The notes below the pieces were generated by a model, which saw only the letters and a list, made by a program, of their open reading frames with translations, did no database searches and was not told where the DNA came from. The position numbers and the translations under genes were made by a program. This document shows positions 6,880 through 9,366 of a stretch of DNA of 23,264 nucleotides, piece after piece. The stretch's first letter is position 1. The number at the start of each line of letters is the position of its first letter. This DNA is from a virus: positions 1 through 23,264 of the IMG/VR virus record IMGVR_UViG_3300026184_000191; one strand, written 5' to 3'.

Positions 6880-7184
6880 ACGTCAATTTCTCCCAGCGTC
6901 ACATCCGCCAATTCGCCCAGCGTCCAGCCTGTAACAGTACCTACCTGCATCGGGACGGGCAGCACACCGTAATTGAGTGCTTCCGGTGTTCCGTAACTGC
7001 CATCACTGTTCTGCACAACCGTGTACAGGATAATCCGGCTGTCTGCATACGCGCTCAAATCCACGTTCGGAAAACTATATTCGAAGCCCGGAAAAGTCGT
7101 GGTGGAACCCAGCAGCGTATCCGTCACCGGATCAGGCGTTGCGCCATCTTGCCGAAATAATTTCACAGTCTGCGGCTGAGACAT
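6876..7184 (-). CDS. Small tail-region protein (102 aa)
   Basis: A 102-aa protein that is beta-rich by composition (for example SRIILYTVVQNSDGSYG) and ends in an acidic segment. Its start at 7184 shares bases with the stop of the upstream gene (TGATG), and its stop overlaps the next start (ATGA), so the three genes are coupled. It may be a minor tail or fibre-associated component. No family is recognised. Confidence 0.65.
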   Translation of the reverse strand: MSQPQTVKLFRQDGATPDPVTDTLLGSTTTFPGFEYSFPNVDLSAYADSRIILYTVVQNSDGSYGTPEALNYGVLPVPMQVGTVTGWTLGELADVTLGEIDV

Positions 7185-7501
7185 CAGACCTCCTCAAGCG
7201 CCTGCCGGGCGGCGGACTTGCATTGCTTCACATAGTCCTCGAATGCGATACGATCAAGATCATCTGGCGCCTTATCCCGGAGGTTGAACTCATCGTTCAC
7301 ATCGTACTTCGCCCGGATCTGCGCATCGACCAACTTCTTGCAGGTGATATCACCTGCGATTTCCACGTAATCGTACTTGTAGAAGGTCTCCGTTTCGCCC
7401 TCAAACTCCTTCGTAACTTCCCGGATGTTGAAGCGGAACTGGGTGACGCTGCCGCGTTCGACAAAGGTCTCTGGATAATCTTTTGATGTGCCTGTTTTCA
7501 T
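7184..7501 (-). CDS. Small phage tail-region protein (105 aa)
   Basis: A 105-aa charged, soluble protein. It has a beta-rich first half (TQFRFNIREVTKEFEGETE) and a helical C-terminus (FEDYVKQCKSAARQALEEV). It starts at ATG 7501 with GTTGAGGA as a ribosome binding site. It begins only 39 bases after the stop of the truncated reverse transcriptase, so the break point of the DGR lies directly before it. No family is recognised; its coupling to the downstream tail genes suggests it belongs to the tail operon rather than to the DGR. Confidence 0.7.
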   Translation of the reverse strand: MKTGTSKDYPETFVERGSVTQFRFNIREVTKEFEGETETFYKYDYVEIAGDITCKKLVDAQIRAKYDVNDEFNLRDKAPDDLDRIAFEDYVKQCKSAARQALEEV

Positions 7502-7540
7502 AGTATCCTCAACTCAGTGTGTAATACCGATTAATCTTTT

Positions 7541-7708
7541 TTATTGCTGTTTCAGCATCTCTGCAATCTTGGGTAAATATATGTCCGGATTTTTGTCTAC
7601 CATCTGTACTTCGTGATAATGCGTTTTTTTTCGCCGGGCGTTTTGATGCGCCAGGTGAATATTCTCTATGGCACAGACATCCTGGTATAAGTTGCCGTAG
7701 CGCTTCAT
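7541..7708 (-). pseudogene. Truncated DGR reverse transcriptase (N-terminal 55 codons)
   Basis: This short ORF begins MKRYGNLYQDVCAIENI and continues with LAHQNARR and EVQMVDKNPDIYL. It matches, from memory, the conserved N-terminus of DGR reverse transcriptases (the start MKRYGNL, then the ARK/ARR and the VQxVDKNPDxYL segments). It has a strong ribosome binding site (GGGGAGG, 9 bases before ATG) and lies immediately 3' of the template repeat, the normal position of the RT. It ends at TAA after KIAEMLKQQ. An intact enzyme is some 300 residues longer and carries the YxDD catalytic motif, which is found in no plausible frame here. The gene is therefore a remnant or a deletion product, unless the rest lies elsewhere in the genome. 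Confidence 0.85.
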
Positions 7709-8013
7709 GTGCTTATACCTCCCCGGAAGCGTTCGAGTCCAAACAGACCTACTAACATCGTATGGGGCTTACGTGATTTTTTGGCAAGAGCCAAGGATAC
7801 TCTGCTATGCCGGATTTTTTTAAGGTACAAGCGCAGCTGAGCACCGATATTGGCATTGTCATTCGCGGAATCGTTATTCGTATTCAGCGTGAACGCGCCA
7901 GATTGGGAACTGTTATTCGCATTCCCGCCTACCAGCGCGATCTGCCAACGTGAGCAGAGCACCCTCAAAAATTTTGCCCGTGTTGCGTGTTTACGTTTCA
8001 TTCGTGTTCCATG
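7709..8013 (-). ncRNA. DGR template RNA region (TR plus flanks)
   Basis: The 305 bases between the variable gene stop and the RT start hold no convincing gene. They carry the template repeat (7831-7947), a 66-base upstream spacer and a 122-base segment between TR and the RT start. In known DGRs the RNA spanning TR and its 3' flank up to RT is the cDNA template and priming scaffold. The exact RNA ends cannot be seen, and no avd gene fits in this space. Confidence 0.6.
7831..7947 (-). repeat. DGR template repeat (TR)
   Basis: A 117-base sequence aligned without gaps to the 3' end of the variable gene (8029-8145). Of 21 mismatches, 18 are at adenines of this copy on the minus strand, and 18 of its 30 adenines differ in the variable copy. 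It is rich in AAT/AAC codon triplets, as DGR templates are, because these allow the widest residue choice. It lies upstream of the RT remnant and downstream of the variable gene. The apparent 98-aa frame through it (7705-8001) is not considered a gene. Confidence 0.93.
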
Positions 8014-9366
8014 TTAAGCACTTCTATAGCACAGCCGAGCACCAATACCGGCATTGCCAATCGCGGAAGCGCTAGTCGCATGCAGCGCGAACGCGCCAGA
8101 TTGGGAACCGTTACCCGCATGCCCGCCCACCCGCGCGACCCGCCAGTCATCAAAGGCCGGAGTGAGGTTACCAAAGTAGGTGTAATAGTAATCTGTTATC
8201 CACGTAGAGGAAGAACTTCCAATCGATGATGGTAAAAACAATCCGAAGGTGTCAATCAGTAGTTTTTGATACCCAGCGACCTCCACCAGATCGCCCGCAC
8301 TCTCATAGTCCGTGTCGGTATCATCCGCGTAATTGGCGGGGTTGTTCGCCACATACGCCCGGCTATAACTCGTACCGCCATCATCGTCAAAGTTGTGGAT
8401 ATTCAGCCCGTCGATGAACTTCCAGACGTTGCCGTACCAGTTTTCAATACCCCGGTACGACATATACTCTGTATTCGTGGAGCCATCGTTCGGGTCAGTG
8501 ATCGTCAGTCCACCCTCGGCGGTGTCGGAGGCGTTCGTTCTGTTGCCGTCAGCATTGGAATAACCAGTATCGCCAACATCGTTGTCATAATCCCACGCAT
8601 CGTAGGAGGTGTTGCCGTTGCCGATCACGTCCTGCGTATTGAAAGTCGCATACTCAATCAGAATCAGCAGGTCGATGGCATCCCGAATATATTTATCTTC
8701 GAGTTGCCAGCCGCTCCCGACGTTCCCGGCGATGGATCGAAACTCCGCGCGGGTTTCATCTGTCAGGGGTTTGTATCCGGAGACAGAGCCAAGTTTGTCA
8801 TTGGCTGTATCAATCGCCCCGCCGTTGAAGTTACTCGCCGCAGCACCAGTGCCATCATTATACGCCCCAGCCCCGGCATCATACGCGACGCCTTCGTATG
8901 CTCCAATAAATATTCTATCGAGAATTGTCCCCTTGGGATTGAACACCGGATACGGCACAAATCCAGGCAATGGACCCGGTGCGATATCATGTTGTACCCA
9001 ATCACCACTTGTGGAGTAGCGGTAGAAAAATACCGGGCGATCCACAACTACCTGTCCGTCAGTCCCGTCAATATTCGCGGCATCGCCATTCACTTTTTTT
9101 GTGGAGTCGGCCGCATCCAGATAATATTGTATCTCTCCAGAGGCATTCACAACACAGCGCTGCTGTGCCGCCTGCATAGGTAAGAACGTATTACCAGGGG
9201 ACTGGCCCACCGTAAATCCCTTCAAGGCACCGGTGCGCTGAATTTCGCCGGTCACCTGATTAATTTTCACGCCGTAACTGTAGACGCCGGTGGCTAATGC
9301 CGCAATTGCATCCCGGACCGTATCTCCGGATTGTGTGCCGGCAGTTCCAATATCTATCATACTCAT
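8014..9366 (-). CDS. DGR variable protein, C-type-lectin/FGE-like receptor-binding protein
   Basis: A 450-aa protein whose C-terminal half has the formylglycine-generating-enzyme/C-type-lectin features of DGR target proteins: RGIENWYGNVWKFIDGLN near residues 325-345 and the final GDWR-like DDWRVARVGGHAGNG, SGAFAL and GIGARLCYR elements. Residues 408-446 are encoded by the variable region (8029-8145), and the protein ends four residues later. The first 130 residues (MSMIDIGTAGTQSGDT, then QVTGEIQRTGAL) look like a separate attachment domain, probably to the tail. It starts at ATG 9366, ATGA-overlapping the previous gene, with GAGGTG upstream; MIDIG at 9360 is an alternative start. Its likely role is diversified host-receptor binding at the tail tip. 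Confidence 0.9.
   Translation of the reverse strand: MSMIDIGTAGTQSGDTVRDAIAALATGVYSYGVKINQVTGEIQRTGALKGFTVGQSPGNTFLPMQAAQQRCVVNASGEIQYYLDAADSTKKVNGDAANIDGTDGQVVVDRPVFFYRYSTSGDWVQHDIAPGPLPGFVPYPVFNPKGTILDRIFIGAYEGVAYDAGAGAYNDGTGAAASNFNGGAIDTANDKLGSVSGYKPLTDETRAEFRSIAGNVGSGWQLEDKYIRDAIDLLILIEYATFNTQDVIGNGNTSYDAWDYDNDVGDTGYSNADGNRTNASDTAEGGLTITDPNDGSTNTEYMSYRGIENWYGNVWKFIDGLNIHNFDDDGGTSYSRAYVANNPANYADDTDTDYESAGDLVEVAGYQKLLIDTFGLFLPSSIGSSSSTWITDYYYTYFGNLTPAFDDWRVARVGGHAGNGSQSGAFALHATSASAIGNAGIGARLCYRSA
8029..8145 (-). repeat. DGR variable region (VR)
   Basis: This 117-base 3' segment of the variable gene is the recipient copy of the template at 7831-7947. Adenine-site changes comprise 13 A to G, 4 A to C and 1 A to T, alter residues such as Asn to His, Gly, Thr, Ser or Ile, and leave the intervening GGC/GCG/TCC/CTG scaffold unchanged. 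The three non-adenine differences are CTG/CGG near the 5' side and ATC/ATT and CGC/TGC near the 3' side. The 3' ones fall where an IMH/IMH* distinction is expected. Confidence 0.93.

Follow-up and report, generated by a model that had tools for sequence, protein, structure and literature searches.

A phage DGR locus probably inactivated by a recent deletion of the reverse transcriptase core and most of an accessory gene

The window analysed in the present study is an entire IMG/VR viral record of 23,264 bases, which represents a genome fragment. It harbours a DGR locus comprising a target gene with its variable repeat (VR), a template repeat (TR), a spacer, the beginning of a reverse transcriptase (RT) gene, the end of an accessory gene and a downstream gene of the tail region (Table 1).

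Table 1. Features of the DGR locus, with their positions in the window and the evidence for each assignment
Feature	Position	Strand	Evidence
Target gene of the DGR, encoding a phage tail protein of 450 aa (phrog_5302) with the VR at its C-terminus	8014..9366	(-)	phrog_5302 E 1e-79
Variable repeat (VR)	8028..8145	(-)	Direct repeat of TR, spacing 198; adenine-biased mismatches
Template repeat (TR), 30 adenines	7830..7947	(-)	Direct repeat; same place in relatives
TR-to-RT spacer, expected 3' part of DGR RNA	7709..7829	(-)	Alignment of 18 loci, covariation
DGR reverse transcriptase remnant, codons 1-53	7550..7708	(-)	phrog_1423, IMG/VR and phage-record matches
Accessory-gene remnant, last 13 codons and TGA	7509..7550	(-)	Family HMM, C-terminal HMM, L010 identity
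Small intact gene of the tail region (105 aa), 3' of the deletion	7184..7501	(-)	Homologs in related loci

The RT remnant is read from a minus-strand ORF at 7541-7708, which begins with the ATG at 7708, consists of 55 codons (the junction codons included) and a stop, and encodes MKRYGNLYQDVCAIENIHLAHQNARRKKTHYHEVQMVDKNPDIYLPKIAEMLKQQ. As the first-pass annotation had described, it terminates at 7541 with KIAEMLKQQ-TAA and is followed after 39 bases (7502-7540) by the ATG of the gene at 7184-7501. Residues 1-54 of the 55-aa product match phrog_1423 'Reverse transcriptase' (E 4.4e-7); its identity to the DGR RTs in IMG/VR reaches 65%, and annotated phage RTs are also matched, for instance that of Psychrobacillus phage Perkons (59.6%, E 4e-14). 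The start codon, the ribosome binding site and the frame are all intact, in agreement with the earlier description of an undamaged RT start. The claim that the RT is cut off after 55 codons holds for its coordinates and its identity, with the refinement that the genuine RT amounts to 53 codons: the true RT sequence stops at codon 53 (K, base 7550), and the terminal QQ-TAA of the ORF is accessory-gene sequence in the wrong frame. A search for the RT domain (PF00078) in the whole record found none and a six-frame [YF]xDD scan gave matches solely in unrelated genes or meaningless frames, bearing out the statement that no YxDD-bearing frame follows the remnant. The DGR-type RT with catalytic YxDD that characterises an autonomous DGR is represented here by codons 1-53 only.

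The sequence TAIKKINRYYTLS-TGA, which lies in a frame different from that of the RT remnant, corresponds to the C-terminal end of a family of OB-like proteins, ~98 aa long, whose genes lie downstream of the RT. In many relatives, genes of this family have 96-109 codons, lie directly after the RT and end in IKKI(N/D)(R/K)YYT(L/F)(T/S)-stop. The accessory gene is directly 3' of the RT in the related loci L001, L008, L018, L025, L031, L040 and L058, in the archaeal virus ANMV-1 and in vir525, and close downstream of it in L068. In a search of the six frames of the window with the family profile, the segment ranked first (E 0.023 for the full profile), the alignment covering the last model positions up to its own stop codon, while an HMM of the accessory C-terminus scored the window at 25.2 bits, with none of 60 shuffled windows exceeding 10.4. 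The closest accessory tail is that of L010, in which IKKINRYYTLS and the stop are identical and 33 of the 42 nt of the segment are shared. All the differences in the 11 shared codons are synonymous, indicating that the segment was under coding constraint until lately. Assignment of AIKKINRYY to the C-terminus of the RT itself was rejected, as it is mismatched by the RT C-termini of the relatives and matched by their accessory C-termini.

The deletion junction is located at ~7550, where RT codon 53 is joined to the 13th-last accessory codon. The presence of an accessory C-terminus at this point suggests that one deletion joined the two genes. On the basis of the RT (~351 codons) and the accessory gene (~98 codons) of the relatives, the missing DNA would measure ~1.15 kb. 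The accessory protein of an autonomous DGR is thus reduced to its last 13 codons, out of frame. Selection for the 55-aa product itself, say in an RNA-binding or regulatory role as an RT-derived peptide, would be compatible with the undamaged frame and its intact start codon and ribosome binding site; however, its two final codons stem from the junction, none of the viral relatives examined encodes a similar short form on its own, and 53 codons are too few for showing selection after the deletion, making this explanation highly improbable.

Members of the accessory family are found, for example, at L001:4323-4610, L008:7062-7379, L031:3467-3760 and L208:3504-3800, the last being that of ANMV-1 (AJP62065.1), where it follows the RT, as it does in vir525 of Methanosarcinales; both records call the protein hypothetical. 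Searches with the accessory gave no convincing match in Pfam and weak matches in PHROGs, all to families of unknown function (best E 3.5e-7). The AlphaFold2 model has a mean pLDDT of 83 and the order strand-strand-strand-helix-strand-strand. Its comparison with solved structures using Foldseek gave no match at E 0.001 or better, and many of the weak matches are chains that contain OB-type domains, such as RuvBL, HIN and RPA. The model thus suggests an OB-like and possibly nucleic-acid-binding protein, and the small family downstream of the phage DGR RTs is a candidate DGR accessory factor.

The relatives of the target protein include those of L001 (38%) and Methanosarcina virus MetMV (36.6%), and also occur in crAss-like phages. 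A few codons separate the end of the VR from the stop codon of this tail protein, and the TR of the relatives commonly lies ~115-125 nt before the RT start. The two repeats of the window differ at 21 of 118 sites, of which 18 are TR adenines; in their core, changes affect 18 of the 30 template adenines and 2 of the 84 other sites, an evident adenine bias. Among 69 related loci scored in the same manner, there are no non-adenine mismatches in 38, one in 22 and at least two in nine, so that the count of the window is within the range of cassettes with an intact RT. Of the two non-adenine changes in the core, one (T-to-G) lies close to the 5' edge of the repeat, and several relatives with an intact RT also have such a change near that edge. 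With regard to an IMH/IMH* and a hairpin downstream of the VR, the TR/VR identity continues up to the 3' end, where two C-to-T differences occur; a search for an inverted repeat after the VR found none in the window, and none is obvious in L001. Divergence at the adenines with no excess of other changes indicates that the loss of the RT was recent, although remnants of 53 and 13 codons offer few sites on which to judge the recency.

A mechanically called minus-strand ORF of 98 codons (7705-8001) spans the TR and resembles the C-terminus of the target (phrog_5302); it is unlikely to be a gene and is regarded as template sequence. Two related loci, L019 and L061, carry 9 and 11 non-adenine TR/VR mismatches, respectively, despite their full-length RTs, unlike all the others, and the template copy in L061 has only 14 adenines, as if a VR copy had overwritten it.

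The spacer of the window (z -2.0) retains the hairpin UUGGC-UCUU-GCCAA and the conserved GTAG and CGAACGCT motifs seen in the alignment of 18 loci, across which the hairpin pairs covary, including a C-G/G-C swap in the window, and a structured spacer RNA is therefore preserved. The 105-aa tail gene gave no match in phage records; its homologs are found near the RT in related loci and after the accessory gene in L008, L031 and L058, whose order of RT, accessory gene and tail gene homolog is the arrangement that an ancestor of the window would be expected to have had.

The conserved and apparently intact state of all the cis elements, together with the lack of excess non-adenine mismatches between TR and VR, would also be consistent with a non-autonomous DGR, for which RT and accessory protein come from elsewhere (the rest of the phage genome, the host or a co-infecting phage) and act in trans. 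DGR components can function from separate plasmids (PMC12875486) and diversification in trans has been inferred in Thiohalocapsa (PMC10907252). The record, however, contains neither an RT nor another adenine-tolerant match to the TR: an adenine-tolerant TR scan gave the VR with agreement at 85 of 88 non-adenine sites and a next best match at 40 of 88, while in the related loci compared the best match agreed at 63 of 88 and lay in an orthologous locus. An RT elsewhere accompanied by a TR that matches the VR at all the non-adenine sites was found neither in the record nor in the compared loci, and it appears that no other RT serves the cassette. The clean TR/VR pair is equally well explained by a recent deletion, and in a single genome this could not be told apart from supply in trans. 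The supply of the proteins from elsewhere is thus considered quite unlikely, and it is doubtful that the locus is a cis-only phage cassette (target, TR and spacer RNA) still diversified by the RT and accessory protein of a host or co-infecting element. The first-pass annotation had called a phage DGR using a foreign RT unusual, which is upheld for phages; it does not extend to bacteria, since trans-acting and RT-less loci are known in Thiohalocapsa PB-PSB1 (PMC10907252).

The frequency of comparable losses was examined in the RTs of 80 related viral loci, nearly all of which are ~315-367 aa long with an in-frame YxDD. A second survey, blind to truncation, employed a DNA pattern for MKRYGNLY in viral contigs with at least 1,100 nt after the start; the in-frame YxDD is kept after 56 of the 58 distinct starts. 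One of the remaining two is L010, whose RT has an internal deletion; the other, L193, was rejected as a second RT remnant, being a chance match in an unrelated region that is not a DGR. Apart from the window, core loss therefore affects one of 57 genuine viral loci (L010) and is rare among the viral loci sampled here.

The RT of L010 (L010:309-761, IMGVR_UViG_3300009374_000549) is a 150-aa DGR RT that has no YxDD and has lost ~200 internal codons in frame; a homolog of the tail gene and an accessory gene, which is intact, lie after it, and the contig ends before the VR. In L087 (497 onward), the RT frame is broken after 80 codons and YMDD occurs in another frame; its TR/VR pair is clean (1 of 79 non-adenine mismatches), and the break is read as a frameshift or sequencing error. 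Truncated DGR-like RT starts were also observed in bacterial, mainly cyanobacterial, genomes (L103, L107, L111, L112, L132 and L133), but these short ORFs have no TR/VR pair nearby and were rejected as parallels.

The rarity of core loss, with L010 alone among 57 comparable genuine viral loci, would favour an assembly artefact or a mixed population, wherein the virus, or the greater part of its population, would have a complete RT and accessory gene and the deleted path was assembled or chosen. The source is an IMG/VR virus record, and long reads from Thiohalocapsa PB-PSB1 reveal that variants with intact and disrupted RT coexist (PMC10907252). On the other hand, the junction has no direct repeat of at least 20 nt, and the sole pair found nearby is TR and VR; although these would be the likeliest repeats to cause a misassembly, they are kept apart correctly and are distinct, and the coding sequence is clean on both sides of the junction. 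The deletion is probably real in the virus, and an origin in assembly or population mixture is considered unlikely.

The locus is best explained as a freshly inactivated phage DGR, in which one recent deletion probably took the RT core and most of the accessory gene. No near relatives were found in IMG/VR by exact DNA pattern or by TerL, and the proposed ancestral order, namely target with VR, TR, RT (~351 codons), OB-like accessory gene (~98 codons) and tail gene, is that of loci with at most 65% RT identity. A single deletion of ~1.15 kb would have fused RT codon 53 to the 13th-last accessory codon, leaving the VR, the TR and the structured spacer on one side and the tail gene on the other. 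With this genome alone, the template RNA would still be made and its reverse transcription would be impossible, so that the tail-tip sequence would be frozen at its last variant. A recent deletion accounts for the remnants of two adjacent genes, the flanking synteny, the unspoiled cis elements and the clean TR/VR pair. Among the readings offered initially, the best supported is thus that of a fresh deletion by which an RT remnant came to adjoin the tail genes, but the loss of the accessory gene and the 13-codon remnant at the junction had been missed.

Cassettes of phages with a MKRYGNLY-type RT (L001, L008, L031 and L058) and of the archaeal virus ANMV-1 (PMC4372165) resemble the window in having a tail protein as target and share the order of VR, TR ~120 nt before the RT, spacer hairpin, RT start, accessory gene and tail gene, whereas the window lacks the RT from codon 54 onward and retains the last 13 codons of the accessory gene. 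L010 likewise has a viral RT of the MKRYGNLY group devoid of the catalytic core, but its deletion is internal and in frame, with the RT C-terminus and the accessory gene kept. Thiohalocapsa PB-PSB1 provides a precedent for degenerate loci, action in trans and coexisting intact variants (PMC10907252): its degenerate or trans-acting loci have, like the window, a target and repeat with a missing or broken RT. The losses there are associated with transposons and MITE-like arrays within one bacterial genome that has intact sister loci, while the window is a viral fragment that displays a simple deletion and for which no sister locus is known. The truncated DGR RTs of DiGReF, read as recent inactivation or sequencing error (PMC3521204), are similarly cut short in otherwise normal-looking cassettes; they are due to transposon insertion, nonsense or frameshift, in contrast to the deletion across two genes seen here. 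A large metagenome survey of DGRs required an RT of 250-550 aa (PMC8144416), a threshold at which a cassette such as this would be missed.

With its cis elements kept and its RT core missing, the locus is a degenerate DGR, which is a known kind, and its anatomy is unusually clear. It represents a natural knock-out, in which the cis half of a phage DGR is separated from the protein half at base resolution, and suggests that the small OB-like accessory gene can be lost together with the RT in one step. The locus would be important only if VR variation were shown in an RT-less population: a VR that still varied in populations with the deleted form only would be evidence for phage DGRs driven in trans. 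Otherwise, the locus would stand as a clean case of a DGR inactivated recently, of a kind seldom met with in the sampled viral loci.
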